The notes beneath the pieces were generated by a model. It searched no databases. It had not been told where the DNA came from and saw only the letters and a list, made by a program, of their open reading frames with translations. This document shows, in pieces, positions 1,514-39,861 of a DNA stretch of 43,562 nt; positions within the stretch are counted from its first letter, which is position 1; each line of letters starts with the position of its first letter. Source of the DNA: a virus. Made by a program: the position numbers and the translations under genes. The stretch covers positions 1 through 43,562 of IMG/VR virus record IMGVR_UViG_3300028840_000745; one strand, written 5' to 3'.

Positions 1514-1558
1514 TAGGGTGTAGGCTACTCGAGGGTCTACACCCTATGGTTAATTTTT
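1514..1558 (+). terminator. Hairpin, possible intrinsic terminator
   Basis: TAGGGTGTAG (1514-1523) and CTACACCCTA (1537-1546) form a perfect 10-bp stem with a 13-nt loop. The T-rich run TAATTTTT begins a few bases downstream but lies within the 23-bp palindrome, so the element could be a terminator or part of a compound regulatory site. Confidence 0.45.
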
Positions 1559-1566
1559 AAACATAG
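1544..1566 (+). promoter_or_regulatory. 23-bp palindrome, site 1
   Basis: This is the first of seven intergenic copies of an imperfect palindrome whose ideal form is CTATGGTTAAT, one base, then the reverse complement. Here the left half matches exactly; the right half has A for C at one position. It ends 11 bases before the ATG at 1578, with the ribosome site (GGGGAG) starting at its last bases. Confidence 0.7.
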
Positions 1567-1577
1567 GGGGAGTAAAG

Positions 1578-1697
1578 ATGAAGAAAACCCTCAAAGCCTT
1601 CAGTAAGGATGAACTGAAGGAGCTTAAACTTAAATATGAAAGAATGAAGAAGCGTCGCAAATTCCAGCGACAAAAACCACGTAGAAGGAGGTACTAA
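1578..1697 (+). CDS. Highly basic miniprotein, 39 aa
   Basis: The frame sits immediately after palindrome site 1 with GGGGGAG as ribosome site. About half the residues are Lys or Arg, ending in RRRRY, so it is likely a nucleic-acid-binding or RNA-binding peptide. Its stop codon directly abuts the ATG of the next gene, whose AAGGAGG ribosome site lies within this gene, implying translational coupling. Confidence 0.55.
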   Translation: MKKTLKAFSKDELKELKLKYERMKKRRKFQRQKPRRRRY

Positions 1698-2207
1698 ATG
1701 ATTGATAAGAATATTCCACCAGATGATGAATTGGGCTACGACCCAGACGAAACACGTAATAACTACAACAAAAACGACGAAGAAGGCGAGCGCCTTGAAA
1801 AGTCTATCAACCAAGCTCACAATAGACAGCGGTCTATTCTTCACTTCTTTCAAATCAATCCGAGAAAAACATTCGCAGTGTTTGAGATTATGGATCTCGT
1901 CTTTTTCAGTGATGTTGCAAGATCCTCTGTCGGCAGTGCTCTCACGAACCTCTCTGACAGAGGTCATCTTGAAATGACTCCCATTCAAAGAATGGGGCCT
2001 TGGAGTCGGAAGGTTTATACTTGGTGTCTCCGCGGCACAGTCGAGTGGCACCTTGTTGAGGGAGAGAAGGATCTCTATATCAAATACTCTGACGTTAATA
2101 AAGACTGGGTGTTCCAGAAGATCACACGAGCTATCTTTAAAAGATGGTCAGGGACTAAGAGCGAAGCCCAGCAGAGGAAGGAGGATTTAAACAATGTCCG
2201 AAAGTGA
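1698..2207 (+). CDS. Putative winged-helix DNA-binding protein, 169 aa
   Basis: The N-terminal 45 residues are acidic and probably disordered. Residues 45-100 read like a winged helix: a helix (RSILHFFQIN), a second helix (FEIMDLVFF), a recognition-type helix (ARSSVGSALTNLSDRG) and a hydrophobic strand (HLEMTPI). The pattern of SSVGSAL.NL.DRG is typical of MarR/replication-initiator wHTH folds. It lies directly downstream of palindrome site 1, so it is a reasonable candidate regulator of that site. It overlaps the next gene by 14 bases. Confidence 0.6.
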   Translation: MIDKNIPPDDELGYDPDETRNNYNKNDEEGERLEKSINQAHNRQRSILHFFQINPRKTFAVFEIMDLVFFSDVARSSVGSALTNLSDRGHLEMTPIQRMGPWSRKVYTWCLRGTVEWHLVEGEKDLYIKYSDVNKDWVFQKITRAIFKRWSGTKSEAQQRKEDLNNVRK

Positions 2208-2820
2208 TTTCTATGAAGTAGAGAAAAGAAACAAGAAAGGTCTTCCCTATACTGTTAAAAGGGCAAGAACTCTCTTGGGCGCTGTTCGATATAGGCCAGA
2301 GGCTGTTGCGTCTCTGGCGAGTTATCTAATCTCGCTCGGAGAAATACATCAGTCAGTAAGCTCAGTATTAAAAAGATGTCTTGAGTTACACACTTTATTC
2401 ATCAAAGAAAACTTCCCAGAGCATTACATAGCTGATGTAAATGAGGCTATTGAGTTCCTTCAATCAAAAGGAATAATTAAAGAGGTCAGTGATACTAACA
2501 AACCTCGTGTACATTCTGCAGTGTCTGGACAATCACTTATGATTGCAAGAGGTAAAGAAGATATAGAGGAAGACGCCTTCTATAGAGCAATGTACGTGAG
2601 ATACCAGAACCTCGATCAAGAATTATATGATGCTTATCCAGACTTCGAGGACTATTACAAAGCACAAAAGATGATACGTGATGCGGAGATAAAACGAAGA
2701 GAACCGCCGGTAGTGCTTCCCAAGGAACAAAACTGGTCAGTGGATAATCTCCACGATCAACTCTCAAAGGTTCCAGATAACGTTGAAATCGTGGATTCAA
2801 AAAATGAAAAAGATGAGTGA
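2194..2820 (+). CDS. Hypothetical protein, 208 aa
   Basis: The start has AAGGAGGATTTAAACA upstream and lies inside the end of the previous gene. The N-terminal half (residues 15-105) appears helical; the C-terminal half is acidic, with an aromatic stretch (YPDFEDYYKAQ, near 146-156). No catalytic motif or membrane segment is evident. It shares a transcript with the winged-helix gene and may work with it. A sigma70 promoter begins 16 bases after its stop. Confidence 0.65.
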   Translation: MSESDFYEVEKRNKKGLPYTVKRARTLLGAVRYRPEAVASLASYLISLGEIHQSVSSVLKRCLELHTLFIKENFPEHYIADVNEAIEFLQSKGIIKEVSDTNKPRVHSAVSGQSLMIARGKEDIEEDAFYRAMYVRYQNLDQELYDAYPDFEDYYKAQKMIRDAEIKRREPPVVLPKEQNWSVDNLHDQLSKVPDNVEIVDSKNEKDE

Positions 2821-2836
2821 AATTATCAGAGATCAC

Positions 2837-2865
2837 TTGACATCTAATGAATTTTTTGGTATAAT
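2837..2865 (+). promoter_or_regulatory. Sigma70 promoter P1 (early)
   Basis: TTGACA (2837-2842), a 17-bp spacer, and TATAAT (2860-2865) are perfect consensus boxes. TGG just upstream of the -10 gives an extended -10. It would start transcription near 2872, ahead of the gene at 2909, and is a near twin of the promoter at 5217. Confidence 0.85.
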
Positions 2866-2908
2866 AGTTGGTAGAGAATCGAGGACTAACAACGAAAGGA
2901 GAAAACGA

Positions 2909-3172
2909 ATGACTGAAGAAGATTTAAAATCTAATCCACATTGCGAAGAATGTGGAGCACTTCCGGAAACCCGGCCTGAAATCGGCCCACCTAAGCCAGT
3001 CTACTTCGGCAAAAACAAAGGTAGGTTCTTCTACCTAAGACCATTCAGTTGGAAGAAACTCTGCTCTTGGCATCGGCGAGAAGAAGAACGTATCAAACGT
3101 GAAGAAGCCGAGAGTAAGAAGAAAGGAAGAATCAAATTAGATAGACTCCCAGATGTAAGGTGGGAGCTATAA
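2909..3172 (+). CDS. Small zinc-finger-like protein, 87 aa
   Basis: The start at 2909 has AAAGGAGAAAACGA and lies downstream of P1; an upstream in-frame start would read across that promoter and is rejected. The protein has CEEC near residue 11 and CSWH near residue 58, separated by a basic aromatic region, followed by a Lys/Arg/Glu-rich helix. This C-x2-C...C-x2-H layout suits a treble-clef or HNH-like zinc site, but no HNH catalytic residues are clear. It is transcribed by a host promoter, so it is an early gene. Confidence 0.65.
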   Translation: MTEEDLKSNPHCEECGALPETRPEIGPPKPVYFGKNKGRFFYLRPFSWKKLCSWHRREEERIKREEAESKKKGRIKLDRLPDVRWEL

Positions 3173-3175
3173 GAC

Positions 3176-3360
3176 TTAAGCCCTCAATGATTGAGAAAAC
3201 TAATGATACTTGAAGTCAAAACTTACAAAGTCGCAGTTGTCAGCTGCGCTATTTGTTGCAAGGCAAATACTTTAACCGGATGAATACTGACTTCACAGGG
3301 TTCTGCGGGGTTCCCTGCCGCTGTATCGTTGGTCTGTCATGTAGCGCATTGAGGGCTTAA
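3176..3360 (+). ncRNA. Candidate structured RNA, about 185 nt
   Basis: A 206-base gap between genes folds into a compact multi-helix element. P1 is a perfect 14-bp closing stem (3176-3189 with 3347-3360). P2 is 8 bp (3211-3218 with 3288-3295). Inside P2 is a three-way junction: AAAGT/ACTTT (3227-3231, 3269-3273) enclosing CGCAG/CTGCG (3232-3236, 3244-3248) and ATTTG/CAAAT (3251-3255, 3264-3268). P3 is CAGGG/CCCTG (3296-3300, 3313-3317). P4 is CGCTGTAT/ATGTAGCG (3319-3326, 3339-3346, two G-U pairs). P2, P3, P4 and P1 abut with at most one free base, so they could stack coaxially. AACC (3274-3277) may also pair with GGTT (3309-3312). I do not recognise the class; it could be a free small RNA or a cis element for the gene at 3379. 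Confidence 0.6.
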
Positions 3361-3378
3361 CAAAAGAAAGGAGAAAGC

Positions 3379-3840
3379 ATGATCTTATTAAGTAGCCCGA
3401 ACCTTCGGGAGAGACTTGGAAAAGAATGGAAAAAGTACAAGAGGATGAAAGAGTTTCATCTGTCCGCGCAAAAACAGATTGACTTTGTTCTTGAGAACAA
3501 GTGGCTAAACCGCCAGCCGTGTAAAATCTGGTATCACACCGATTCCCTCTTCGGGAATAAGCTTATCTTCAACGTCCAGAACGTAGATATCGAGAAATTT
3601 ATCGAAAACGTTCTCGGCCCATTTCACCTTAAGTTTGATAAACTTTGGCATTTAGAGCTCAGTGGTGATGAGGAAGAACCAGTGTTCGAGTTTTCTGACA
3701 ACTCATCTCCTCTCTGGGCAAAATCAGTATTCTTTGTCAAAGAAGGTGAGTTTAGACAATGTACAGTCGTCAAGGAGTTCTCGCACGTTAGAGAAGGGAA
3801 CCCAGAACCAGTCTACAGACTAAGATTGGTCTGCGAATAG
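3379..3840 (+). CDS. Hypothetical protein, 153 aa
   Basis: The start follows AAAGGAGAAAGC, 18 bases after the structured RNA closes, so translation could depend on that fold. The protein begins with a basic helical segment and continues as an alternating hydrophobic/charged pattern suggesting beta strands (residues 50-150). No Cys cluster, membrane segment or catalytic motif is seen. Its stop codon lies in a small hairpin (TAGGGA...TCCCTA, 3838-3854). Confidence 0.65.
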   Translation: MILLSSPNLRERLGKEWKKYKRMKEFHLSAQKQIDFVLENKWLNRQPCKIWYHTDSLFGNKLIFNVQNVDIEKFIENVLGPFHLKFDKLWHLELSGDEEEPVFEFSDNSSPLWAKSVFFVKEGEFRQCTVVKEFSHVREGNPEPVYRLRLVCE

Positions 3841-3871
3841 GGACGTCATCCCTAAACGAAAGGAAAAAAGA

Positions 3872-4201
3872 ATGGATAAAAATACTTCTATGTTAGAAGC
3901 CCATGAAACTATTTGCTTGTTCTTAGACAATAAGCTAAATCAAATTAAAGAATCAGCTATGCCGGATAAGTACAAAGAAGATGCTTTAGATTTTGGAGAA
4001 GGACTCAGGGAAACTCTTAACATAGTTTCGAAACACGTCCAGCTCCTGGACCTCTATAGCCTTATTCTGGGTCTAACAACAGTTTTCATAACTACTCCGT
4101 CTGATTACTTCAAACTCTTAGATGTGTTCAACAGGGGAATCCGTAACTATGCAAAGTGCGCTTTAAAAGAATCCAGTGGAAAATTTAAGGAGGAAAAATG
4201 A
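3872..4201 (+). CDS. Hypothetical helical protein, 109 aa
   Basis: The start has AAAGGAAAAAAGA. The product is predicted largely alpha-helical, with a hydrophobic stretch near residues 63-78 (LYSLILGLTTVFI) that could be a buried helix or weak membrane segment. No recognised family. Its end overlaps the next start by four bases (ATGA), indicating coupled translation with the two following genes. Confidence 0.6.
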   Translation: MDKNTSMLEAHETICLFLDNKLNQIKESAMPDKYKEDALDFGEGLRETLNIVSKHVQLLDLYSLILGLTTVFITTPSDYFKLLDVFNRGIRNYAKCALKESSGKFKEEK

Positions 4202-4467
4202 GAGAAGAAGAAATCCACGAGAAGACTTTCCAGGAGATCCTGGATCTGACGATTACAGGTGAAGCCGACTCTGTAATGTTGATCGTAACTTTTAAGGATG
4301 ATATATTCATCGGCGGAAGTGGAGACAGAGCTGTTTCTCTGGCGGCTATAGCTACGGTTTTAGAAACAGTTCCACAGAAGGTCTTAGTGCCTTTGTTTGC
4401 GTCTATTCTTAAAAGACAGGGGACTGAAGTAATAAGTCCAGAGACAGATAACGAAACGATACATTAA
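4198..4467 (+). CDS. Hypothetical protein, 89 aa
   Basis: The ATGA overlap with the preceding gene and AAGGAGGAAAA support the start. The middle has two hydrophobic strands (SVMLIVTFKDDIFIGG) and a helix (AAIATVLETVP), giving a small alpha/beta pattern. No catalytic motif is seen. It belongs to the operon read through from promoter P1 and the structured RNA region. Confidence 0.6.
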   Translation: MREEEIHEKTFQEILDLTITGEADSVMLIVTFKDDIFIGGSGDRAVSLAAIATVLETVPQKVLVPLFASILKRQGTEVISPETDNETIH

Positions 4468-4474
4468 AGGTAGC

Positions 4475-4840
4475 ATGGATAAACTATTACTCGAGGACTT
4501 GCGTGGAATAGTTGCCCTGCTCGAAGATCCACGTGAGATCTATAAAAGACAAAGGTGGTCATATTACTTGGAGATTAAGCGGCTCCTTAAGCTTCGCAAT
4601 CTCGCAAGGCAGATAGCTACTAAGTATGACTTTAGACTGACACGAACAAAGCTTCTACATAATCGGATAGATCGTAAACTTGCGGAGATGGATGGGAGAT
4701 ATAAGGTCGTTGAACCTCACTATCATCGCTCCGAGGATCGCCCGATAGACGCAAAGCGTCTCGTAAAGAAGCTCTCGCAGAGTGAGAAAGAAAAGCTCAT
4801 CGATGAACTGATGAAGCACTTCGAAAGGAGGAAAGCATGA
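4475..4840 (+). CDS. Hypothetical basic helical protein, 121 aa
   Basis: The ribosome site is weak (AAAGGTAGC), so translation probably depends on the upstream gene seven bases away. The protein is rich in Lys, Arg and Leu and probably all helical. A His pair at YHYHR-like positions (residues 83-86) has no clear zinc partner. It overlaps the next gene by four bases (ATGA). Function unknown. Confidence 0.6.
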   Translation: MDKLLLEDLRGIVALLEDPREIYKRQRWSYYLEIKRLLKLRNLARQIATKYDFRLTRTKLLHNRIDRKLAEMDGRYKVVEPHYHRSEDRPIDAKRLVKKLSQSEKEKLIDELMKHFERRKA

Positions 4841-5199
4841 AGAGCATAGAACTCTTAAAAGAAGCAAAGGAGATCCTTGATAGATATTGGTTCTCTGACT
4901 TAGGACAAACCAACAACGATGATGTTATAAACATGTGTGAGAAGATCAAGGAGTTCCTTGGGTCTGAAAAGATGTCAAAACTTAACGGTAGTCATCAAGA
5001 ATTGATAGAACAGCTAATGCTCTTAGTTCCAGCTGTTCTGCGAGACCAAGGAGAGGATATTCAGGACTTCAAAGATTGGGCTATAGATTATTATGGCGAG
5101 AACCATGAGGGTGAGATTGAACTCGATCTTGCAATCCACCGCATACGAGGTATGCTGGAAGATATTCGCAAGAATATAAGAGATTCAATTATGCGCTAG
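4837..5199 (+). CDS. Hypothetical acidic helical protein, 120 aa
   Basis: The start lies in AAAGGAGGAAAGC at the end of the previous gene. The protein is helical and acidic, with a likely coiled-coil C-terminus (LDLAIHRIRGMLEDIRKNIR). No known family. It closes the first early operon; the second sigma70 promoter begins 18 bases after its stop. Confidence 0.6.
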   Translation: MKSIELLKEAKEILDRYWFSDLGQTNNDDVINMCEKIKEFLGSEKMSKLNGSHQELIEQLMLLVPAVLRDQGEDIQDFKDWAIDYYGENHEGEIELDLAIHRIRGMLEDIRKNIRDSIMR

Positions 5200-5216
5200 C
5201 ATATACCAAAGACTAC

Positions 5217-5245
5217 TTGACAACTGGCCATTTTTTTGGTATAAT
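5217..5245 (+). promoter_or_regulatory. Sigma70 promoter P2, flanked by inverted repeat
   Basis: TTGACA (5217-5222), a 17-bp spacer and TATAAT (5240-5245) match consensus, with TGG ahead of the -10 as in P1. TATACCAAA (5202-5210) and TTTGGTATA (5235-5243) form a 9-bp inverted repeat that brackets the -35 and overlaps the -10, so a regulator could block this promoter. It drives the leader peptide and the gene at 5385. Confidence 0.85.
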
Positions 5246-5288
5246 GGTTTTTGTCACTGGGAGTCTTAAACTGGTAAAGGAAGGAGTG

Positions 5289-5327
5289 ATGCTTAAGGGA
5301 CAACGTCCCACTTTGTTTAATTATTAA
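5289..5327 (+). CDS. Candidate leader peptide, 12 aa
   Basis: AAAGGAAGGAGTG precedes an ATG that opens a 12-codon frame, MLKGQRPTLFNY, about 40 bases after P2. It contains a small hairpin (GGGAC/GTCCC, 5297-5309) and its stop codon lies inside palindrome site 2. The ribosome site is as strong as those of real genes, so it may be translated and act as a leader for the gene at 5385. Confidence 0.4.
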   Translation: MLKGQRPTLFNY

Positions 5328-5333
5328 CCATAG
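5311..5333 (+). promoter_or_regulatory. 23-bp palindrome, site 2
   Basis: The right half (ATTAACCATAG) is perfect; the left half reads CTTTGTTTAAT. Unlike most copies it is 51 bases from the next main start codon (5385), but it overlaps the stop of the 12-codon leader. Confidence 0.7.
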
Positions 5334-5384
5334 GACTCAAATTAACTAGAACTTAATCAATCTAATGAATGAAAGGAGATTCAA

Positions 5385-5720: not shown

Positions 5721-5740
5721 AGATTCGAACTCAGGCCACT

Positions 5741-5769
5741 GAGAGGGGGACTATGTCCCCTTCTCTTTT
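5741..5769 (+). terminator. Intrinsic terminator
   Basis: GGGGAC (5746-5751) pairs with GTCCCC (5755-5760) around a TAT loop, with outer GAGA/CTCT pairing possible, followed by TTCTCTTTTA. It lies just after the gene at 5385-5720. Confidence 0.65.
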
Positions 5770-5802
5770 ACCCAATATGGACACCATCAGGAGTCGATAA
5801 GC

Positions 5803-6929: not shown

Positions 6930-6941
6930 AAGGAGCTTTCA

Positions 6942-7268: not shown

Positions 7269-7280
7269 GGAGGTGATAGT

Positions 7281-7691
7281 TTGAGGAAAAAGGTCTTCGT
7301 AGTGAACCGTAGTTCACATGACTATAGTGGCGCAGAGGATTTTGGAGATCTGATTTTTATGACTGATGGTAGTCTACGAAGATTCTCCGTCTCCCGAATG
7401 TGCCGACTCTTTGAGCCGTTTATTCGACGTAGCGAGCCTTATGACTACATACTGCTAAGCGGCATGACAGTCATGTGCTCAGTAGCTTGTGCTATGTTCG
7501 CGGCGAAACATGGTAGATTAAATCTGCTTATATATAAACCAGATCCTCGTTCACCTTCTACCTACGTTGAACGGGTATCTATATTTAAGGAGACTAAAGG
7601 TGGGACGAGATATAAAGAAAGCAAGGATGCAACAAGCAAAAGCTCAACAGGCTTTAGCAAACGAAGCCGTGGCGAACTCTACGATCTATAA
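7281..7691 (+). CDS. Hypothetical protein, 136 aa, TTG start
   Basis: The frame opens with TTG behind AAGGAGGTGATAG, a very strong site. Residues 1-100 are well-formed alpha/beta (KKVFVVNRS, DLIFMTDGSLRRFS, YDYILLSGMTVMCSVACAMFAAKHG, LNLLIYKP), resembling a small Rossmann-like fold; no catalytic motif is certain. The last 30 residues are polar and low-complexity, where the DNA is shared with the next gene for 92 bases in the +1 frame. It begins a chain of overlapping genes. Confidence 0.65.
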   Translation: MRKKVFVVNRSSHDYSGAEDFGDLIFMTDGSLRRFSVSRMCRLFEPFIRRSEPYDYILLSGMTVMCSVACAMFAAKHGRLNLLIYKPDPRSPSTYVERVSIFKETKGGTRYKESKDATSKSSTGFSKRSRGELYDL

Positions 7692-10473: not shown

Positions 10474-10496
10474 CTCTGGTTAATTTTTAACCATAG
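10474..10496 (+). promoter_or_regulatory. 23-bp palindrome, site 3
   Basis: CTCTGGTTAAT and the perfect right half TTTAACCATAG differ from ideal at two positions. It lies just after the SSB-like gene and eight bases before the hairpin element at 10504. Confidence 0.7.
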
Positions 10497-10582: not shown

Positions 10583-10819
10583 ATGGACTCATATAGATAT
10601 CGTCCAAGGTTGTCTATCGATATCAGTGAGGAGATGAAGGCTAAGCTCGATCGATATTTTCCAGAAAGCGGTAGGAAGAAAGAAGTCTTTACTGTTATTC
10701 TGGAAGACCTATTTCGTCTGTTCGATGAACACGGGCAGGCGATAGTTGTTGGCGCGCTAGTCGAGCGTGCTATAACCCTGAAAGAGATTTGTAAACTCAA
10801 TCTTGATAAGGAGAGATAA
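10583..10819 (+). CDS. Ribbon-helix-helix-like DNA-binding protein, 78 aa
   Basis: The ATG at 10583 follows AAAGGAGATTAT; a longer frame from 10514 would pass through the hairpin and is rejected. RPRLSIDIS looks like the DNA-contacting beta strand and EEMKAKLDRYFP plus KKEVFTVILEDLFRLFDEHG like the two helices of an RHH or RHH-like fold. It may regulate its own operon, which also encodes the ParB-methyltransferase, or bind the nearby palindrome. It overlaps the next ATG by one base. Confidence 0.65.
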   Translation: MDSYRYRPRLSIDISEEMKAKLDRYFPESGRKKEVFTVILEDLFRLFDEHGQAIVVGALVERAITLKEICKLNLDKER

Positions 10820-11055
10820 TGGCTCAAATCGACGATTTGAACGTATCCATTTCTAGCATGAACCCGGAGGAAGCTTTCGCGTTGGTTAAAAGCCTACGTG
10901 AGTCGCGAAGGATAAAGAAGAAAGTTACGAAGCCCAGAGGATCAACCTCCTCAGGAGCTTCGAGAGCTAAGCCGAAAGACCCACTGGCTAACTTAACCCA
11001 AGAGCAGAAAGCTGTTCTTATAACCATGCTAGAAAAGGAGTTAAACGGAAAATGA
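10819..11055 (+). CDS. Small basic protein, 78 aa
   Basis: The start lies at the previous stop (TAATG) behind AAGGAGAGATA. A first helical segment (NPEEAFALVKSLRESRRIKKK) is joined by a Ser/Lys/Pro-rich linker to a second helix (LTQEQKAVLITMLEKEL). Its four-base overlap with the ParB-methyltransferase gene and constant coupling suggest a partner or adaptor, but no function is known to me. Confidence 0.65.
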   Translation: MAQIDDLNVSISSMNPEEAFALVKSLRESRRIKKKVTKPRGSTSSGASRAKPKDPLANLTQEQKAVLITMLEKELNGK

Positions 11056-12440
11056 TTAAGGAAGGAACATTGGCTGTAATTCCACTGGGAGATATAGATT
11101 ATGGAGATCGGGGACGTCAAGATTACAAAGACATTGCGGCACTTGCCACCTCTATCAGAGAACATGGACTCGTACATCCGATCGCAATTATGCCGCATCC
11201 AGAAGCAAATGGAAAATACCTGTTACTTGCCGGAGGGCGTCGCCTACGGGCCTGCGAGCACCTTAACAGCGAGAGAATTGAGTGTAAGATTTTCCCAGGT
11301 AGGTTATCGGAGCTTGAAATTAGATCCATTGAGTTACTGGAGAACATTCAACGAGAGGATCTCGAATACCACGAGAAAGTTCGGATGGCCAAGAAGATAC
11401 GAGATCTTATGGTCGAAATACATGGTCGTAAGAAGTCCACATCACCTGACGCGCCTGGCGTTAGCGACCGTGACGTAGCTAAGATGATTGGCATTACTCA
11501 TGGCAAACTGTCACAAGATATCGGTCTTGCGGAGACCATGGAAAAGTTTCCAGATGTTCCCTGGGAACAGTGTAAGAACAAGGCCGAAGCCATGAAGCTT
11601 AAGGAAAACATCAGTCGGGTATTTATCCGACAAGAAGCTGCTAAACAGTTTGAAGAGGCTATCAGAGAAGACAATGGAGCACTGACGTTGAGAGATGCTC
11701 AGAGACAGAAGCTTGCCTCGTTTTACCTTGTCGGCGATTTCTTCGAGATGGTTAAGAAAGTCCCCTCCGAACTATTTAATCTCGTTGAGGTTGACCCTCC
11801 CTATTCCATCGATCTTGGAAAGATCAAGAAGAAAACGGGTTTTGGTAACTACAGTTACAGTGAAAAGGGTTATAACGAGATCCTCAAAGAGGATTATCCG
11901 AAGTTTATCTTCGAAACCCTTTCAGAGTGTTATCGTGTGATGAAGAAAGATTCCTGGCTGATCTTCTGGTTTTCGCCAGACCCGTGGTATCCCTTCATCC
12001 TTGAAGCTATGCGGAAGATCGGCTTCAACGTTCGTGGTCTGCCATGTGTTTGGGCCAAGGGAGAAGCGGAAGAGGGTGAGCTCGTAGAAACCACAAGCGG
12101 TCAGACCAACACGCCGATTCGGCACCTGGCAAGCTCCGTAGAGTTTTTCTTCTATGCTAAGAAAGGAGACCCTAAACTCAACAAGATGGGTCGGACAAAC
12201 CATTTCGGTTTCAAGCCCGTCCCACCAAGTAAGAAGATCCACCCGACAGAAAGGCCACTCGAGCTAATGGACGAGATCCTGACGACCTTCGTCATGGAAG
12301 GCTCACGGGTGTTAGTACCATTCGCAGGAAGTGGTAATACGTTAATCTCAGCTTATCGGAATAAGATGCTTCCGATAGGTTATGATCTCGGTGAAATCCA
12401 CCGGGAAGGATTCCTAACAAGGATTAAGGAGGTAATATGA
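11052..12440 (+). CDS. ParB-like/DNA methyltransferase fusion
   Basis: Residues 1-110 are a ParB/Srx-type domain, with AGGRRLRAC (60-68) and ENIQREDL (about 97-104); a helical HTH-like region follows (VAKMIGITHGKLSQDIGLAE). The C-terminal part is an amino-methyltransferase with DPPY (248-251) ahead of the SAM-binding FAGSGNT (424-430), the beta-class order for N6-adenine or N4-cytosine methylation. It probably methylates phage DNA to resist host restriction, the ParB part giving DNA or CTP binding. No restriction nuclease is adjacent. The length is normal for this phage fusion. Confidence 0.9.
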   Translation: MIKEGTLAVIPLGDIDYGDRGRQDYKDIAALATSIREHGLVHPIAIMPHPEANGKYLLLAGGRRLRACEHLNSERIECKIFPGRLSELEIRSIELLENIQREDLEYHEKVRMAKKIRDLMVEIHGRKKSTSPDAPGVSDRDVAKMIGITHGKLSQDIGLAETMEKFPDVPWEQCKNKAEAMKLKENISRVFIRQEAAKQFEEAIREDNGALTLRDAQRQKLASFYLVGDFFEMVKKVPSELFNLVEVDPPYSIDLGKIKKKTGFGNYSYSEKGYNEILKEDYPKFIFETLSECYRVMKKDSWLIFWFSPDPWYPFILEAMRKIGFNVRGLPCVWAKGEAEEGELVETTSGQTNTPIRHLASSVEFFFYAKKGDPKLNKMGRTNHFGFKPVPPSKKIHPTERPLELMDEILTTFVMEGSRVLVPFAGSGNTLISAYRNKMLPIGYDLGEIHREGFLTRIKEVI

Positions 12441-13888: not shown

Positions 13889-14470
13889 ATGGAACTATTC
13901 TTTGATACGGAAACTTCGGACAAGATCAACTTCAAAACTCAACTCTATACCGATGATGACTTTCCCTGGGTAGTGCAGTTGGGAGCTGTTCTGGCAGAGG
14001 AAGGGATAGCTTTTGCCGAGGTCAATGTTCTTGTTCAGGCCGACGGCAGAACTATCTCAGATGGCGCAGCCAGGGTGCATCAGATAGACACTGAAACTGC
14101 TGATCGTTGCGGGATTGCTGAGCATCTTGTAGCCACGTTATTCACCAGTCTAATGAACCGTGCGGATATACTTGTCGCACACAACTTTGACTTTGATGTG
14201 CAGATGATGGCTGCTATGCTCTTGAGGAATAACCTTAGTCAGAGAGCCAAGATTCTCATGTACGAGAAGCCATACTATTGTACCATGAAAGAAACCACAG
14301 AGCTTTGTAATCTACCTGGGCCCTATGGCCCTAAGTGGCCTAAGCTCTCGGAACTCCATGAGTTCCTATTTGGCGAAGGGTTCGTCGGTGCGCACGATGC
14401 GATGTATGATATACGTGCAACGATGAAGTGTTTCTATAAACTGAAAGAGGAAGGACATATAGAGCTATGA
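13889..14470 (+). CDS. DnaQ-like 3'-5' exonuclease (DEDDh), 193 aa
   Basis: I chose the ATG at 13889 behind AAAGGAGAACC; an upstream in-frame start runs into the previous gene. Exo I is FDTETS (Asp6, Glu8), Exo II is AHNFDFD (about 104-110), and Exo III has His and Asp in HDAMYDIRAT (near 169-178), the DEDDh type. It should degrade single-stranded 3' ends or proofread. The adjoining polymerase has its own intact exonuclease domain, so this may serve recombination or nucleotide salvage. It overlaps the polymerase start by four bases. Confidence 0.87.
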   Translation: MELFFDTETSDKINFKTQLYTDDDFPWVVQLGAVLAEEGIAFAEVNVLVQADGRTISDGAARVHQIDTETADRCGIAEHLVATLFTSLMNRADILVAHNFDFDVQMMAAMLLRNNLSQRAKILMYEKPYYCTMKETTELCNLPGPYGPKWPKLSELHEFLFGEGFVGAHDAMYDIRATMKCFYKLKEEGHIEL

Positions 14471-16911
14471 GCACTTACGTACGTCCAGAAGGTGATCCCG
14501 ACAGGGCTAAGATAATTATCGTCGGCGAACAGCCCGGGAAGACTGAGGTACAATCCGGTCGGCCGTTCGTCGGACCTGCAGGGAGAGAACTAAACGAGTG
14601 TCTTAAGGCCGCTGGCGTCATTCGCCAAGAGTGTTACATAACAAACTTTGCTAAGGATTTCGATCAACACGTTAGTGAGTACCTGAACCTTTCAACTCTA
14701 ACGTTCAGTGAGAAGGGACTCAAGTATCGAGATCTTTTGATCGGCGAGATCAATGATGCCAAAGCGATAGCAGTCATTGCGATGGGAAACTATTCTATGA
14801 CTGCTCTTACTAACATTAACAAGCCTGGCATAACCAAGTGGAGAGGTTCGGTATTAACTGACGATCGAATGCCAGGAAAATATATCATACCTACAATCCA
14901 CACTTCAACAATACTCCCGCCCAAGTTCGTTTATTTAAACAAGTTCCTTATCCAACTAGACATCAAACGAGCGAGAGTTATTGCAGATAACGGACATACA
15001 CCAAAGTTCCGTAAACTTATTATCAAACCGACTTACTTTGAGATTATGTCTTATCTCGCCAAGATTGAAAAGGAGGGAACTGATGGCAAGATTATATACT
15101 TCGATATTGAGCTTCTCAACGAGGAAGTTTCCTGCATTTCATTTGCGTATCGGGACGATGAAGCATTATGTATACCTTTTGTTGCGGCGGATGGAGATTA
15201 CCTCACCATCGAGCAAGAAACAAACGTCTTCCAACACGTGGCAGATATTCTTGAAGATGGTGCTATCAGGAAAGGTGGACAAAACCTCGGTTTTGATACG
15301 CACTTTCTACTTCGTCGTTACGGGATCAAAGCTAAAAATTTGGAAGACACGATGGTTGCTCAAAGAATCATCATGCCAGACTATCCGATCGGACTTGACT
15401 TCATTACCTCAGTGTGGACTGATCATCGATATTACAAGGATGAAGGAAAAAGGTACTTCGGTACAGGTGGGGAACAGCTATGGAAGTATAACGCTACCGA
15501 CTCTATCATGTGCGCCGAAGCTTTCCCGAAACAGATTGAGAAGTTGGAGCAACAGGGCAATATCGAAACTTACTATCGGCAAGTCAAGCTAATCCCACCT
15601 CTAGTATATATGCAAGAGCGTGGTATCAAGATGGACATGGACGGCATACGTCAGAAACGAGAGGACCTGGCAAAGGAAGCCGAGCAACATCAAGAGAAGC
15701 TGAACAAGATCGCAGGGTTCCACTTAAATCCTAACTCACCCAAACAACTGAAGGAATACTTCTACGGTCGGCTGAAGTTTCCAGCATATAAGAACCGCAG
15801 AACCAAAGCACCTACCACTGATGACGATGCGATGAAACGTCTGGCGAAGAAAGGAGTTAAAGAAGCGAATCTCATTCGCAAGATCCGCAAGTGCGTCAAG
15901 CTCTCAGGTACTTACCTGAATGAAGATAAGTTCGACCCTGATGGTCGTGTTCGTTGTTCGTTCAACCCAGTTGGTACAAGGTTCTCACGACTTTCATCGT
16001 CTGCCAATATCTTTGGTACAGGTATGAACCTGCAGAACGTACCACACGAGCTGTTGAAGTTCTTTCTATTTGACGACAATTATGTCGGCTATCGTATTGA
16101 TCTATCTCAGGCCGAAAACCGTATCGTTGCTTATGTCGGCAACATAACACCAATGATTGATTGCTTCGAAAGGAAAGACGATGTACACAAACTCACCGCA
16201 TCTCTTATATTTCAAAAGCCTGCGTCCGACATTACGACTGAGGACGGCACTTGTTCTTTGGGAGACGGTTCCCACAATGAAAGATTTTGGGGCAAGAAGG
16301 CAAATCATGCTCTTAATTACGATCTAGGCTATAAATCATTTGCACATATCTACGAAACTACTGAGAGGGAAGCGCATTTCATTGTCGAACGTTATCACAT
16401 GGCATATCCTGGAGTGCGTAATAACTTTCATGTTTATGTTCGTAAGTGCCTTCGGGAGAACCGGATCATTACAAATCTTATGGGACGCCGGACCCTCTTT
16501 ATGGATCGGTGGGGAGATAAACTGTTTAAGGATGCTTACTCTTGTATCCCCCAGGGAACGGTTGGAGATGTTATTAACGAGCGCGGAGTTATTGAGCTTT
16601 ACTATCAAGAAAAATATGCGCTATCTGAACTGCTCCTCCAAGTCCATGACGATGTAACATTCCAGATCCCTAAGTCTGTACCTTACGAGGAACATGCCAA
16701 GATGATCCTCGATGTCAAGTCTAAGCTCGAGATTCCATTAACTACCCACTATGGCAGGGAATTTATAATTCCTGCGGACGTTACTATTTGTCCCCGAACA
16801 CTGGCCAAGGAAGATGGCAAGGACCTTAAATCCCACGAGGTTCCTTCAACTGCAGTTGAACTTGCTGAAATTATTCGCACCACGGTGGAGTCTTATGAAG
16901 CGAGAGCTTGA
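14467..16911 (+). CDS. Family A DNA polymerase with N-terminal UDG domain
   Basis: It is the phage replicative polymerase. Residues 1-180 form a family 4-like uracil-DNA glycosylase fold (GEQPGKTE, GRPFVGPAG, and HTS where HPS is usual); few cysteines are present, so no Fe-S cluster and doubtful activity. The exonuclease (about 205-390) has DIE, NLGFD and YNATD. The polymerase has motif A DLSQAENR (Asp545), motif B GKKANHALNYDLGY and motif C VHDD (Asp728). Tyr618 occupies the position of E. coli Phe762; published surveys link Tyr/Phe there with lytic phages. A His seems to stand where E. coli has catalytic Lys758, as far as I can align. The C-terminal 15 bases overlap the helicase gene. Confidence 0.93.
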   Translation: MSTYVRPEGDPDRAKIIIVGEQPGKTEVQSGRPFVGPAGRELNECLKAAGVIRQECYITNFAKDFDQHVSEYLNLSTLTFSEKGLKYRDLLIGEINDAKAIAVIAMGNYSMTALTNINKPGITKWRGSVLTDDRMPGKYIIPTIHTSTILPPKFVYLNKFLIQLDIKRARVIADNGHTPKFRKLIIKPTYFEIMSYLAKIEKEGTDGKIIYFDIELLNEEVSCISFAYRDDEALCIPFVAADGDYLTIEQETNVFQHVADILEDGAIRKGGQNLGFDTHFLLRRYGIKAKNLEDTMVAQRIIMPDYPIGLDFITSVWTDHRYYKDEGKRYFGTGGEQLWKYNATDSIMCAEAFPKQIEKLEQQGNIETYYRQVKLIPPLVYMQERGIKMDMDGIRQKREDLAKEAEQHQEKLNKIAGFHLNPNSPKQLKEYFYGRLKFPAYKNRRTKAPTTDDDAMKRLAKKGVKEANLIRKIRKCVKLSGTYLNEDKFDPDGRVRCSFNPVGTRFSRLSSSANIFGTGMNLQNVPHELLKFFLFDDNYVGYRIDLSQAENRIVAYVGNITPMIDCFERKDDVHKLTASLIFQKPASDITTEDGTCSLGDGSHNERFWGKKANHALNYDLGYKSFAHIYETTEREAHFIVERYHMAYPGVRNNFHVYVRKCLRENRIITNLMGRRTLFMDRWGDKLFKDAYSCIPQGTVGDVINERGVIELYYQEKYALSELLLQVHDDVTFQIPKSVPYEEHAKMILDVKSKLEIPLTTHYGREFIIPADVTICPRTLAKEDGKDLKSHEVPSTAVELAEIIRTTVESYEARA

Positions 16912-18109: not shown

Positions 18110-18132
18110 CTATGGTTAATAATTAACCAAAG
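18110..18132 (+). promoter_or_regulatory. 23-bp palindrome, site 4
   Basis: CTATGGTTAAT is perfect; the right half ATTAACCAAAG has one mismatch. It begins right after the helicase stop and ends 14 bases before the ATG at 18147, running into GGGAGGAAA, the ribosome site. Confidence 0.75.
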
Positions 18133-25555: not shown

Positions 25556-25578
25556 CTATGGTTATTTTTTAAACAAAG
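25556..25578 (-). promoter_or_regulatory. 23-bp palindrome, site 5
   Basis: Read on the - strand the halves are CTTTGTTTAAA and ATAACCATAG. It contains the stop codon of the gene at 25562-26005 and ends 12 bases before the start at 25543, with the ribosome site beginning immediately after. Confidence 0.65.
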
Positions 25579-30921: not shown

Positions 30922-30944
30922 CTCTGTTTAAAAAATAACCATAG
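30922..30944 (-). promoter_or_regulatory. 23-bp palindrome, site 6
   Basis: On the - strand it reads CTATGGTTATT, one base, then TTTAAACAGAG. It ends eight bases before the adaptor start (30913), and its final AGAGG is the ribosome site. It lies within the 110-base gap after the capsid gene, where transcription could be re-set. Confidence 0.7.
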
Positions 30945-34841: not shown

Positions 34842-34850
34842 TGTTACCTC

Positions 34851-35150: not shown

Positions 35151-37128
35151 ACATACCTCCCATCTTTGATTGATCAAAGGGAACTATATTCCCCTTGTCA
35201 GTTTGCTGTTGAACCTGTTCATCGGGCATAACCTCCACCCGTACAAAATCTTGCACATTCTTAGCTCCACTATTCCTTGCTATGTGCATAAATATCCTCG
35301 GAAGATCGAACTTCTGGTGAAGCTCAGGAGTCCCTGCAATGATCTGAAACATCCGAGTCCAAACGTCCGAGAAATTCCCGCCTGGGATACTTCCATCTCT
35401 CACTAACGTGTCATAGTTAATGGTCAAAGAAAACGGGTCGACTTTAAGTCTTCCCTTATTCTGCATCAACTGCTTAGCGCCGTACTCCTGTAACAGCACT
35501 GTCTGCCACTCGCCAGCCACCTTGACGTAAAGATCCTTGCTCATCAACTGCTGGGTATGCGCAGCAAAGAACTCCCCAATATCCTGCATAGCTTGAAGGC
35601 CAATGATCTTAGCCAATCTACCTAACCTGCTAAGCTGGCCCATTTGAGTTCCTTGAAATTCAGCTGAAGTGAGTCGCTCAGGGCCACCCTGCCGCAAGGC
35701 ACCCATTGCCACGTCATCAGCGGCTCCAATCTTTTGCATCCACTGCACGATCCAGCTAGAATCCTGTACGTGTTGCCGTGTAACATCATTAACTGGGAGT
35801 TGCATAACAGCATCTTTAACGCCTCGGCCCCAAGCTGGTCTGCGCATTCTAATACGTTTTCCAGCTTTAGGTGAGTTGATATCCTTGGAGTTGACCAAAT
35901 ATGGATCGTAGATAAGCATATCATTGATCGTTTTCCTTACGTTTGCAACGTGTGCGTTAAACATCCAGTCAAGGACTCCTTGAAGTCCATACAACATTTC
36001 CAACCTGGACATACTAAGAGCCGAATATCCGTCGAAGTCGGGAGCGGTTACTGCAACCGGGAATTTACCGTGATTCAGACCGAGAGGTTTAGCTCGAACA
36101 ATGACCGAATCAGCAGCCACGGAAAAGAACCACTTCTCAGGATATTCGGAGTTTCCAAGCCCCCATTCCCTTGGAATCAACTTAACATACATGTGGATAA
36201 GATCCACTGGTTTGGTAGACGTCCCCACGCCTCTAACCTGACCACCCTGACTTGGCTCAGTATGATATCTCGTCAGCTTGCCCGTCTGATATTTCTTCTC
36301 TCTATCACTCTTCTCCTCAGCATAGATAGAAGTAATCCTGTTGTGAACACTATCAACATACTTCACGTTGAAGTAATCCCCATCATTCTGCTCTCTTGAA
36401 AGCAGATCATGATAGTTAGTCCTCTCGACCCAACCAAAAGACTCACCTTCCTGGATCTTATGCGAAGACACGTTCGGGTCAGGTAAAGCAAGATAGGGAT
36501 CTATGTTCTCCAGCGCATTGCCCTCATAAACAATTCCCTCTTCAAATTCCCTACTCCTAATCCCAAGAATATTGCGCTTTACCACAGGTATCTTGCCCAT
36601 GTCTCGGCGCCAATAAGGGCCAACATAACCTACCCCATACGCAAGCGAGTCCCTGAACATCGTGTGAAGATCCAGCAGAATCTTGCTCTTATTACAGTGC
36701 AGAGCAATAACCTTCTCAAGCATAATCGACCCAATAACATCTTCCGGCCCATGTCCTTCAAACCTGAACACTGGATCTTGAAAGAAAGCAGCAACCAGAT
36801 ACGCAAGAATCGTCTCCATTATCGCATAAGTATAGGGAAACACTATGCTAACTGGCTTTCTCGGATCATTATACTTAACTTCCTGCTCACTGTCATCAGT
36901 CTCAATATATGCCGTAAGTGTTCGATCTATCTCATTCCACGCATCAAACCTCGTAGAAGTCGCCGAAGCACTTTCTTGAGCATATCCCATGATCTTCGTC
37001 TTTAGCTTTTTGTGAAAATCTCCCTTCGGATCGAGATTAAGTCCCTTTGGATAATCATAGTCAAAGTTCTTATCCTGAAGGCTTACCTGATTGTTCGAAG
37101 GATTGTCTGTCTGCGCAATGTAAGGCAT
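35143..37128 (-). CDS. Portal protein (head-to-tail connector), 661 aa
   Basis: It forms the ring through which DNA is packaged and ejected. A helical N-terminus contains KPVSIVFPYTYAIMETILAYLVAAFF, common in podoviral portals, followed by the stem and wing regions. The core (DPYLALPDPNVSS, FPVAVTAPDFDGYSALSMSRLEML..DWMFNAHVANVRKTIND) and RLTSAEFQGTQMGQLSRLGRLAKII fit the large portal family of T7-like and P22-like phages. Order TerL - small genes - portal - scaffold - capsid supports it. Confidence 0.88.
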   Translation of the reverse strand: MPYIAQTDNPSNNQVSLQDKNFDYDYPKGLNLDPKGDFHKKLKTKIMGYAQESASATSTRFDAWNEIDRTLTAYIETDDSEQEVKYNDPRKPVSIVFPYTYAIMETILAYLVAAFFQDPVFRFEGHGPEDVIGSIMLEKVIALHCNKSKILLDLHTMFRDSLAYGVGYVGPYWRRDMGKIPVVKRNILGIRSREFEEGIVYEGNALENIDPYLALPDPNVSSHKIQEGESFGWVERTNYHDLLSREQNDGDYFNVKYVDSVHNRITSIYAEEKSDREKKYQTGKLTRYHTEPSQGGQVRGVGTSTKPVDLIHMYVKLIPREWGLGNSEYPEKWFFSVAADSVIVRAKPLGLNHGKFPVAVTAPDFDGYSALSMSRLEMLYGLQGVLDWMFNAHVANVRKTINDMLIYDPYLVNSKDINSPKAGKRIRMRRPAWGRGVKDAVMQLPVNDVTRQHVQDSSWIVQWMQKIGAADDVAMGALRQGGPERLTSAEFQGTQMGQLSRLGRLAKIIGLQAMQDIGEFFAAHTQQLMSKDLYVKVAGEWQTVLLQEYGAKQLMQNKGRLKVDPFSLTINYDTLVRDGSIPGGNFSDVWTRMFQIIAGTPELHQKFDLPRIFMHIARNSGAKNVQDFVRVEVMPDEQVQQQTDKGNIVPFDQSKMGGMFG

Positions 37129-37136
37129 ATCATCTC

Positions 37137-37643
37137 CTAATTCTTTACGTAATGTCCAAAAGCCATTCCATGAACGTTAGCCACATCTCCCAAAGCGTCT
37201 TCACTAACATCTCTCGTAACAGCCACATGAAGACATACAATGTCAGCAGCAAGAGCATCTGCAGCAATAGTTATTAAAGAGCTTATTATTAACCCATCAG
37301 CAGTTCCTGAGCTTGTATAGAGCGCCCCGTTCGAGTCAGTCGCAGCCGCATCAGTATCGTCATCCACAGCTGTTTTAAGATAGCTAGCCAAAAAGTAACA
37401 ATCTCCGGAAATAACAGGACTCGACCAACCTACACAGATACTCGAAGGCAGACCTCTTGCCATATAAGTCGGTACCTTCAGAGCTGCTAAGAGAGTATTA
37501 TCAGCACTATCTGAAAGTTCCCAACAACCAGAAATACCATTACTCAACACAGCCCAAGTAGCACTATTAACTGGATGGTTACCAATGCCATTGGCAGGAA
37601 GCCACTCATACTCCAACTTATATCCGGGAATCTTCGTTATCAC
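37137..37643 (-). CDS. Beta-rich virion protein, 168 aa, GTG start
   Basis: The GTG at 37643 overlaps the previous stop (GTGA), with CGGAGATTAC ahead. The sequence is small-residue-rich with alternating hydrophobic strands (SATWAVLSNGISGCWEL, LIISSLITIAADALAADIVCLHVAV), as in capsid or tail beta-sandwich proteins. Encoded between TerL and portal together with two other small proteins, it is probably part of the head; no family recognised. Confidence 0.6.
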   Translation of the reverse strand: MITKIPGYKLEYEWLPANGIGNHPVNSATWAVLSNGISGCWELSDSADNTLLAALKVPTYMARGLPSSICVGWSSPVISGDCYFLASYLKTAVDDDTDAAATDSNGALYTSSGTADGLIISSLITIAADALAADIVCLHVAVTRDVSEDALGDVANVHGMAFGHYVKN

Positions 37644-37975
37644 GTAATCTCCGCACCAAACAACGTTATCGTTATAGCATTAGCTACGCTTGACCGATAA
37701 GCAAAATTGCCAGTCGAATCATTCATCGCAATGAAAACATCGAGTTCCATGAACTCATCCGCAAGCAGCTCAACATCATATGCTAGCGCAGTACTCTGGT
37801 CATATGTCGTACCATTATCATCGCAAAACAACCGAAATGTAGCATTAGCTCCACTTGTGTTCGCGAGAAAGATGGTCTTAATAATTGCCGTCGTGCTCGC
37901 CCCAGGTGAGTAAACGCTAACAGCATTAGTCGAGTTTTCCCTCGCTTGTGCTAATTGCTTCTCTTGAAAAGCCAT
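37640..37975 (-). CDS. Virion protein, 111 aa, fibre/decoration-like
   Basis: The start is behind AGGAGATACT. Residues 20-110 form a beta pattern (TAIIKTIFLANTSGANATFRLFCDDNG, AYDVELLADEFMELDVFIAM, AITITLFGAEI) like the small head-fibre/decoration proteins that trimerise. It is coupled to the next gene by four shared bases. The assignment is by composition and position only. Confidence 0.6.
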   Translation of the reverse strand: MAFQEKQLAQARENSTNAVSVYSPGASTTAIIKTIFLANTSGANATFRLFCDDNGTTYDQSTALAYDVELLADEFMELDVFIAMNDSTGNFAYRSSVANAITITLFGAEIT

Positions 37976-37983
37976 AGTATCTC

Positions 37984-38280
37984 CTAACTAAGTAAAAACA
38001 TATATCTAATAGGAAACTTCTTTCTTGCATCCCTAACTAACGAACTCCCGCCACCTGCAGACGGGCTTGCAAAGGTGGAATACCTCCTCGTATCCACCTG
38101 AAGCTCATCAATCCGAACCACTTCACCGGGGTTAGATGCTGGATCAGCCAGATACATCTGATTAGTAACAACTCCTTTCTGATTCTCACCAGCAAAATCT
38201 CCATCAGGATCATTTACTGTCTCAGTATCGTCAAAAATGAAAGGCCCAATAGACCCTATATAAACCTTCTGTTCAGTCAT
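37984..38280 (-). CDS. Hypothetical protein, 98 aa
   Basis: The start overlaps the terminase stop (ATGA). Short strands (KVYIGSIGPFIFDD, VVRIDELQVDTRR) and a Gly/Ser turn (SPSAGGGSSL) suggest a small beta domain with a hydrophobic end (FPIRYMFLLS). It may be a head or packaging accessory. No family recognised. Confidence 0.55.
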   Translation of the reverse strand: MTEQKVYIGSIGPFIFDDTETVNDPDGDFAGENQKGVVTNQMYLADPASNPGEVVRIDELQVDTRRYSTFASPSAGGGSSLVRDARKKFPIRYMFLLS

Positions 38281-39833
38281 ATTACTTCATAATCCTCGAT
38301 AATCTTTTCATCTTCTTCAAGAAGATCTTTAAACTCATCCTCATCATCTTCCGGGCCCAGATCCTGCGGATCAAAGTAATACGCAAACTGATCAAACACG
38401 TTAATAAGATGCGAAAGGGCATCCATAACGTCCCACAGTTTACTCCTCGGAAACATGGTCAGCTGACTCTCCAGCTTCTGACAACAAGCCATATTATGAT
38501 AGATATAACCAAGCTTGTAATAAGGCCCTAAAGCTGCAACTCTCTCGGCTTTCTTAGTAGCACTTGCACTCAGGCTATAATAGATTGGGAAAATACTCCG
38601 TACCCGCATCTCATTTTCAATAGGCTGAGAAATCCATCGCTCAAGCGATGTAGTTTCAACTGCCAGAATCATGGCCTTATACGTCTGAACTTCTTTAAAC
38701 ATAGCGTCTAACAACTGATCAGGTTCCATCTTGCCAGCAACTACGTTTCTGACGAATATAGCCCTATCACTTCGCTCAACGCCAATAGACAAAACGGCAC
38801 TATCGGCGCTTGACAGTTTAACCGTCTTCGCAGGATCAACTATAACTATGTTTAGAAGATTCCTCGTATAAACTCGCCGAGGCTGCGAATCTTTCTTGTC
38901 ATAAACAAGTAGATGATCCCCGTTCTCGACGAAGTATTTGAAGAACTCCGGTCGAAAGACAGCGTCTTCCTTAGAAATAGCAATATTACGATACTCCCTG
39001 TAAAATACATCGAGCTCGCCAGCATCCTTATACTCCTTATGTTCAACCTTTATCTGTTCAGTCGATACGAATTCCGGCGCATTTGAGTTTAAATCGTCAT
39101 CACAGATTTCTAATCTAATCGATTCCCACTCATCAGAATCCAGTAAGTTCTGCAGCAACGAATCCTCATGCTTCAGAGTATCGATATAAACCATTCTCCA
39201 GTTATCATCCACACGACTTACAGCTTTCATGAAATCAGCCATAAATCTACTTTTCAGCTTATGTCTAAGCTCTTCATTCTCGACCTCATCCGAATCTTCG
39301 AAGTCATCAAATATGAAGAAATCCGGCCGAGCATTAAGGTATAAGATACCACGAATCTGCTGGTTAGAACCTCTCGGGTAAACCAACGTTCCAACCGCAT
39401 CTTCCTGGAATCTAGCAATCCAACTTTTCTTAGAAAACGTCTTGTCCAACGCATCTGCAGCTGTTGTCTTAACACTGCCGAAAAGCTGTCGAATCAGCTG
39501 GTTCGAGCCAAGTTCGATCTTCAAATTCTCAGTCTGCAAAACCGACGAGTCAAAGCTCTTTGAAACGTAAGGAATAAACTTACTCTCTTGGAAGAGGATT
39601 CTTTTAGACGCCAGTGAAAGACCAACTATAGACGTTTTCCCGATACCACGAGGAGCAGCTATTGCTATCTTCTTGGCATCAGAATTATCTATAAGATCAA
39701 ATATCTGATCATGCAGCCTCGAAAAAGGCGCAGTGAATCGCTCAGGAAAAAATATCTTAGAATGTACCTTAGTCGAAAGGTAACAAGCTTCTAACATATC
39801 TTGAGCTTCAGAATCTTTTACTGCTGGAATCAT
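38277..39833 (-). CDS. Terminase large subunit (TerL), 518 aa
   Basis: It is the packaging motor ATPase and nuclease. Walker A is PRGIGKTS (61-68), the Walker B strand is FFIFDDFED (about 172-180) and a coupling motif-like IDTLK follows. The C-terminal nuclease has the acid residues IVDPAKT, ETTS and DVMDALSHL arranged as in RNase H-like TerL nucleases. Its length is usual. A small terminase subunit is not recognised nearby. Palindrome site 7 lies five bases ahead, its end forming the ribosome site. Confidence 0.9.
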   Translation of the reverse strand: MIPAVKDSEAQDMLEACYLSTKVHSKIFFPERFTAPFSRLHDQIFDLIDNSDAKKIAIAAPRGIGKTSIVGLSLASKRILFQESKFIPYVSKSFDSSVLQTENLKIELGSNQLIRQLFGSVKTTAADALDKTFSKKSWIARFQEDAVGTLVYPRGSNQQIRGILYLNARPDFFIFDDFEDSDEVENEELRHKLKSRFMADFMKAVSRVDDNWRMVYIDTLKHEDSLLQNLLDSDEWESIRLEICDDDLNSNAPEFVSTEQIKVEHKEYKDAGELDVFYREYRNIAISKEDAVFRPEFFKYFVENGDHLLVYDKKDSQPRRVYTRNLLNIVIVDPAKTVKLSSADSAVLSIGVERSDRAIFVRNVVAGKMEPDQLLDAMFKEVQTYKAMILAVETTSLERWISQPIENEMRVRSIFPIYYSLSASATKKAERVAALGPYYKLGYIYHNMACCQKLESQLTMFPRSKLWDVMDALSHLINVFDQFAYYFDPQDLGPEDDEDEFKDLLEEDEKIIEDYEVI

Positions 39834-39838
39834 ACACC

Positions 39839-39861
39839 CTCTGTTTAATAATTAACCATAG
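39839..39861 (-). promoter_or_regulatory. 23-bp palindrome, site 7
   Basis: On the - strand CTATGGTTAAT is perfect, then ATTAAACAGAG with two mismatches. It fills the 33-base gap between holin and TerL, and its end AGAGGG is the TerL ribosome site. Confidence 0.75.

Follow-up and report, generated by a model that had tools for sequence, protein, structure and literature searches.

Why would a phage keep seven copies of one palindrome, each fitted whole into a gap between its genes, and which of its proteins would read them? The question is raised by a stretch of viral DNA 43,562 nucleotides long (positions 1 to 43,562 of IMG/VR record IMGVR_UViG_3300028840_000745, called here the window), in which a 23-bp imperfect palindrome recurs from one end to the other. 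Judged from sequence comparison, the palindromes are very probably parS-like sites, with the phage's own ParB-DNA methyltransferase fusion (11052..12440, + strand) as their binder. The fuller reading, in which the ParB-type domain of this fusion would bind and be loaded at them, is also probable. What appears to be new is a ParB-parS-type recognition, with proposed sites and a proposed code, in an unstudied class of phage proteins.

Seven palindromes and their kin in other phages

The palindromes lie, with no strand assigned, at 1544..1566 (CTATGGTTAATTTTTAAACATAG, position weight matrix (PWM) score 33.8), 5311..5333 (CTTTGTTTAATTATTAACCATAG), 10474..10496, 18110..18132 (CTATGGTTAATAATTAACCAAAG), 25556..25578 (CTATGGTTATTTTTTAAACAAAG, PWM score 30.7), 30922..30944 (CTCTGTTTAAAAAATAACCATAG, PWM score 31.5) and 39839..39861 (CTCTGTTTAATAATTAACCATAG). 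The third lies 86 bp 5′ of the ATG of a small ribbon-helix-helix (RHH)-like gene heading the operon of the ParB-methyltransferase. Measured against the reference palindrome CTATGGTTAATNATTAACCATAG, five of the seven copies carry at most two mismatches and two (25556 and 30922) carry four, while the next-best place in the genome carries seven; dinucleotide shuffles of the genome yielded no match at up to three mismatches. An initial annotation of this DNA, which had reported seven palindromes at gene boundaries, had every coordinate right.

All seven copies are held whole in gaps between genes. Gaps able to hold a 23-mer make up just 3.3% of the window's positions, and the chance of placing seven out of seven there is about 5e-11 (a hand-computed product). 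The earlier claim that no copy lies inside the body of a gene thus stands for the window, but not strictly for its relatives: strong copies occur within the longest virion gene of two of them (G001 and G011), and one lies near the start of the corresponding gene in a third (G003). Five sites end 11, 14, 12, 8 and 5 bases before a start codon, in agreement with the 5–14 bases first noted, and this closeness arises because, with about 95% of the genome coding, a 23-mer has to fit in between one gene's stop codon and the ribosome site of the next; such placement would keep the sites out of coding sequence. Degeneracy within the half-sites falls at positions 3/21 and 6/18 and for the most part affects a single side of a given copy. 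Three of the sites have a GC-rich stem-loop (1510-1550, 5297-5309 and 39863-39876) immediately upstream.

Is the palindrome peculiar to this phage? A scan of viral contigs with an IUPAC pattern returned some thirteen further records with palindrome copies, each a relative of the window phage sharing PolA, portal, major capsid or TerL at roughly 40–60% amino acid identity, depending on the fragment. Relatives among the viral contigs came to light with the DNA pattern and with the ParB-methyltransferase as queries, but not with peptide patterns from TerL. The relatives carry 5–21 copies each (7–21 strong copies per near-complete genome) in a common 23-bp frame, CTnTG-core-NNN-core'-CAnAG, whose core varies between phages and is constant among the copies of one genome. 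The lineage cores include GTTAA, TTTAA, TTCAA, TTCAT, TCCCAA, GGGGA, TTACA, TTGAT, TCCAA, ATCAA and GTAAA, and when recurrent 23-bp palindromes were sought without bias, further families came up whose outer bases differ, among them GATtGTTTAAA, CTTGTTTCGAT and GTTAATTAAAT. The best named relative, Desulfofustis phage LS06-2018-MD01 (TerL 44.5%), is without the window motif and carries CTATGTCCCAAnTTGGGACATAG at 7684, 15470, 29966 and 37109, as well as elsewhere. Four contigs of 45–50 kb, filed under bacterial or archaeal metagenome-assembled genome titles (L217, L218, L219 and L224; Clostridia, Nanohaloarchaea and others), resemble whole free phages of the same family.

An inverted repeat that ends 5–14 bases before start codons, with its last G merging into the ribosome site, could also act as RNA, either as a hairpin controlling translation or as a hairpin promoter of the kind used by the N4 virion RNA polymerase. 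Paired stems should change in a compensatory manner, and over 250 sites from 19 genomes (positions 1, 2 and 4–10) there were 318 one-sided changes and 21 compensatory ones, against 53.6 expected from independent halves; the palindromes therefore appear as DNA half-sites and not as RNA hairpins. In G011, moreover, sites mix GGAAAA and GGTTAA halves, which cannot pair. Neither a hairpin promoter nor the promoter for a phage RNA polymerase put forward at first is supported: the sites are symmetric, with no directional element such as T7-type promoters have, and no RNA polymerase was seen among the proteins scanned, which were part of the window's 62. The 1613-aa virion protein, a candidate virion RNA polymerase, gave no Pfam match. 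Readings as RNA hairpins or hairpin promoters are scarcely credible. The initial annotation's alternative, binding by protein, fares well, the comparisons pointing to a real, symmetric and phage-specific set of sites, in which the two arms are best taken as the two halves of a dimer site, one weak half being tolerated.

The ParB-methyltransferase and its proposed reading of the site

The 462-aa fusion combines a ParB N-terminal domain of the CTPase type, a helix-turn-helix and an N6/N4 adenine/cytosine methyltransferase whose DPPY and FAGSG motifs are intact. Pfam assigns it ParB_N (PF02195, above cut-off) and N6_N4_Mtase, and its PDB profile matches are Noc, ParB, KorB and CcrM. In an AlphaFold model (pLDDT 86), Foldseek relates the N-terminal half to Noc/ParB (Noc 7nfu/7ol9) and the C-terminal half to beta-class methyltransferases. 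The helix-turn-helix spans residues 139-165 (11466..11546, + strand), with model helices at 139-146 and 150-165, the latter being the recognition helix. The GxRR and ENxxR motifs of the N-terminal domain are invariant in the relatives aligned.

If this helix-turn-helix reads the palindrome, its residues should change along with the lineage-specific core. About 110 ParB-methyltransferase loci were collected in two profile scans. From the first of these, 39 non-redundant loci were used to score the mutual information of each site base with each of 425 protein columns (363 from the ParB-methyltransferase and 62 from the RHH-like protein), with 200 label shuffles each. For base 6 of the half-site, ParB column 149 (His150 in the window; codon at 11499..11501, + strand) ranks first of all 425 columns, and for base 9, column 154 (Gln155) ranks second; other high columns are scattered along the protein, as expected from shared ancestry. 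When both scans were combined (62 loci below 90% identity, 61 of them with an alignable helix), 14 loci had His or Arg at residue 150 together with G6, 46 had neither, one paired His with T, and none had G without His or Arg (Fisher 7e-13). His or Arg thus goes with G6 in 14 of the 15 loci that have it, Gln with A6 in both of its loci (L082 and L217), and T is found at base 6 where residue 150 is neither His/Arg nor Gln. The one locus whose helix could not be aligned, L163 with its broken frame, reads VSHATVV and has G6, again His with G. Two fresh sets agree: L155 and L173 both pair His with G6, and L217, from a third and independent scan, pairs Gln with A6 across nine site copies. Wherever column 154 is Arg, base 9 is C (7/7 loci, from separate lineages: the TTACA phages, the Desulfofustis phage and L155). 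On a tree built from the methyltransferase part only, the residue changes nine times and the base seven times, and the independent pairs on well-supported branches run in the same direction in 3.8 of 4 cases and never in the opposite one. As far as sequences can tell, the core of the site co-varies with the helix-turn-helix of the phage's own ParB protein and not with the RHH-like protein.

Structures of ParB and Noc give this co-variation a physical counterpart. Published co-crystals show Arg173 of ParB in hydrogen-bond contact with guanine 1 of parS, while the corresponding Noc residue, a glutamine, recognises adenine 1 (PMC7383237). In 53 of 59 loci, alignment with Noc places columns 149 and 154 at ParB 173 (the Noc glutamine) and ParB Asn178, respectively; for the window itself a short local alignment missed this register, although its motif GITHGKLSQD fits by eye. 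The contacted bases of the two half-sites, as deduced from sequence, lie 12 bp apart in a window-type site, and those of the two halves of parS lie 13 bp apart. The code found blindly here, Arg/His with G and Gln with A, is by this alignment the published ParB/Noc code (PMC7383237). His150, the equivalent of Caulobacter ParB Arg173 and first residue of the recognition helix, is accordingly the predicted reader of base 6 (G), and the residue five positions further on would read base 9.

Other proteins had been proposed as binders. The winged helix-turn-helix protein at 1698, named in the initial annotation, has no relative in other phages and was set aside. The second protein named there, the RHH-like protein (78 aa, 10583..10819, + strand), is the first gene of the operon and is present in almost all relatives; it is followed by another 78-aa protein (10819..11055, + strand) and then by the ParB-methyltransferase, and the candidates conserved in all genomes that hold the operon region include the RHH-like protein and, two genes later, the ParB-methyltransferase. 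Were the RHH-like protein the binder, the co-variation of ParB would reflect shared ancestry only. Its gene adjoins that of the ParB-methyltransferase in almost every locus, often with a site just ahead, and palindromes suit RHH-type dimers; yet RLSIE, the strand predicted to contact bases, hardly varies although the cores differ widely, its best column reaches z 4.9 where the ParB recognition helix reaches 7.6 at base 6, and the ParB column and code equal those known from experiment (PMC7383237). Foldseek on its monomer model returned nothing useful, and the fold is not confirmed. The RHH-like protein, which follows the site less closely than the ParB helix-turn-helix does, is quite improbable as the binder and is probably a partner or a regulator of the operon. 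The ParB-methyltransferase, previously listed as a mere downstream gene of one of the sites, is now the best-supported binder.

In one clade (L142, L154, L165 and L174) the helix-turn-helix ends in AIKRA and the palindromes have G, not C, at their outermost base. A code for the outer base (AIKRA with GAtYG ends) was tried: nine loci agree and four disagree, essentially within one clade, and it amounts to a hint only and is not claimed.

Proposed loading along the genome

What could so many sites be for? In 19 near-complete genomes the sites are spaced more evenly than uniform placement predicts (coefficient of variation (CV) 0.27–0.68, combined Fisher p 6e-19), and the largest gap between sites is 5.5–8.9 kb in every one of them, leaving no point farther than about 4.5 kb from a site. 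For the window itself the CV is 0.27, and comparison with randomly chosen gene junctions gives p 0.0007. The junctions are less constant than the spacing: among relatives, orthologous junctions carry a site in 3/11 cases for TerL, 2/11 for portal, 4/9 for the Gly-rich gene and 5/9 for the adaptor. Unshared junctions combined with even spacing argue against gene-specific operators, and the copies inside the longest gene of G001 and G011, like that near its start in G003, fit what a need for spacing predicts. Absence from the same boundaries in relatives, which the initial annotation had named as telling against its set, is thus largely what is found at TerL and portal; the case for gene-specific operators suffers from it, that for the site family does not. 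The sites rather likely behave as a set that covers the genome, serving genome-wide loading and not the control of particular genes.

Gene-specific operators or stoperator-like roadblocks, at which the ParB-methyltransferase or the RHH-like protein would sit at gene starts and control the blocks behind, deserve consideration all the same. Sites stand directly before start codons in tandem genes, and KorB, a relative of ParB, represses at a distance (PMC11790492). A site is also found ahead of the RHH/ParB-methyltransferase operon in 22/38 loci against 4.3 expected, the sole preferred place in the family. Against such operators speak, besides the junctions and the in-gene copies, the lack of direction of the palindromes, unlike stoperators, and the fact that a recognisable sigma-70 promoter (5217) is found close to one site alone. 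This reading is unlikely. The preferred place ahead of the operon suggests feedback control or cis-loading, and the copy there would probably also exert such feedback within a coverage set. Overlap with host sigma-70 operators was considered and dropped, since no promoter but that at 5217 came up close to a site in the promoter scan. That promoter (5217-5245) and another at 2837-2865 are perfect TTGACA-17-TATAAT sequences with extended -10 elements and near-identical spacers, the sole 12/12 matches in the scanned parts of the window; one of them lies 66 bp before the site at 5311.

Loading by the ParB-methyltransferase can be pictured as follows. A dimer of the fusion would recognise the 23-mer through its helix-turn-helix, for which co-variation and structural precedent speak, and would read the 23-bp dyad as two independent half-sites, as the sequences suggest. 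Nucleotide binding and then closure of a clamp at the site would follow, as in ParB, Noc and KorB (PMC11790492), and the clamp would spread along the DNA, carrying the methyltransferase with it. That the protein slides in this manner is, by analogy with the same proteins, slightly more plausible than not. With loading sites every few kilobases the whole phage genome could be covered, and then methylated or otherwise marked. Methylation as the purpose of loading is conceivable yet somewhat doubtful; coating, condensation or transcription control are also possible outcomes. A more speculative version, in which self-marking would depend on the loading site and not on a methylation motif, the clamp sliding from evenly spaced, lineage-specific sites and methylating only DNA that bears them, is possible but doubtful.

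A ParB-type binder with parS-like sites also calls to mind a plasmid-like phage partitioned by way of centromere-like sites. No ParA was seen among the window proteins scanned (not all 62), the sites are dispersed round the genome and not clustered, and relatives in bacterial genome collections are found only on phage-sized or fragment contigs; partition is very improbable.

Several observations weigh against binding and loading by the ParB-methyltransferase. One locus, L072, pairs His with T6; the sign test on supported branches has four pairs, too few for significance; and the genomes of the spacing test share ancestry, although their site positions do not. The sites are 23 bp long against 16 bp or less for parS and the Noc-binding site (NBS), and nothing in the ParB-parS structure corresponds to the outer CTn..nAG. 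The fusion lacks the C-terminal dimerisation domain of ParB, its C-terminal half being a beta-class methyltransferase. Box II (window residues 61-64) reads GGRR and not GERR in nearly all relatives. The Glu of GERR has a recognised role in nucleotide hydrolysis by ParB proteins, so that its replacement by Gly may mean that hydrolysis has been lost, which makes hydrolysis by the fusion doubtful. Which nucleotide a ParB fold binds cannot be told from sequence, according to a December 2025 survey (PMC12704722). Finally, cluster O mycobacteriophages have palindromes in the same register with neither a methyltransferase nor even spacing, and methylation therefore cannot be what all such sites are for.

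Comparison with known systems

The system resembles ParB-parS and Noc-NBS in its ParB N-terminal domain followed by a helix-turn-helix, in its dispersed palindromic sites and in the equivalent of residue 173, which would read the same kind of base by the same code (PMC7383237). It differs in the 23-bp frame with its outer CTn..nAG, in the methyltransferase that replaces the C-terminal dimerisation domain, in GGRR instead of GERR, and in belonging to a phage genome with no ParA in the proteins scanned. On plasmid RK2, KorB and its OB operators likewise bring together a ParB-type protein, palindromic operators dispersed in several copies, and a small DNA-binding partner (KorA there, the RHH-like protein here), but OB sites serve promoters whereas most window sites have none, and KorB carries no methyltransferase.

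Closer in appearance are the cluster O mycobacteriophages such as Corndog, which hold 34 copies of a 17-bp palindrome, TGTTCGG-NNN-CCGAACA, whose binder is unknown (PMC4351075). Its register corresponds to positions 4–10 of the window half-site, and a helix-turn-helix is present in the ParB-like protein that these phages encode (Smooch gp92, Corndog gp90); in Smooch gp92 (L216:11374-12882), aligned by eye, Ser stands at the 173 position, which fits T6. The 34 copies are, however, unevenly spaced (CV 1.06), a third of them lie inside genes, the outer CTn is missing, and the ParB-like protein has no fused methyltransferase. Corndog-type phages are accordingly likened to the window phage and not counted as the same system, and Corndog gp90 becomes a candidate answer to a question raised in the literature, namely which protein binds the cluster O palindrome. 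The start-associated sequences (SAS) and extended SAS (ESAS) of cluster K and the stoperators of cluster A also come as many short copies beside start codons or in gene gaps, but the SAS is asymmetric and contains the ribosome site, its ESAS part being kept at the same gene families (PMC3203893), and stoperators are asymmetric and oriented.

In the part of the December 2025 survey consulted (PMC12704722), fusions of ParB-CTPase folds to N6_N4 methyltransferases form a common, phage-enriched class for which an anti-defence role is suggested, and that part reports no sites, DNA-binding specificity or function for it. The window fusion has the same domain architecture; sites and a code are what is proposed here in addition. 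Such fusions, common in phages, would thus gain candidate DNA targets, with two base-reading residues named and dozens of natural specificity variants supplied. This natural covariation would allow ParB-DNA recognition to be studied at a scale beyond the nearly invariant parS, and the approach offers a bioinformatic route to such sites in other phages.

A side observation concerns the DNA polymerase A of the window (14467-16911), which begins with a uracil-DNA glycosylase superfamily domain (residues 8-150) and continues with a 3'-5' exonuclease and PolA, an unusual-looking fusion of three parts.

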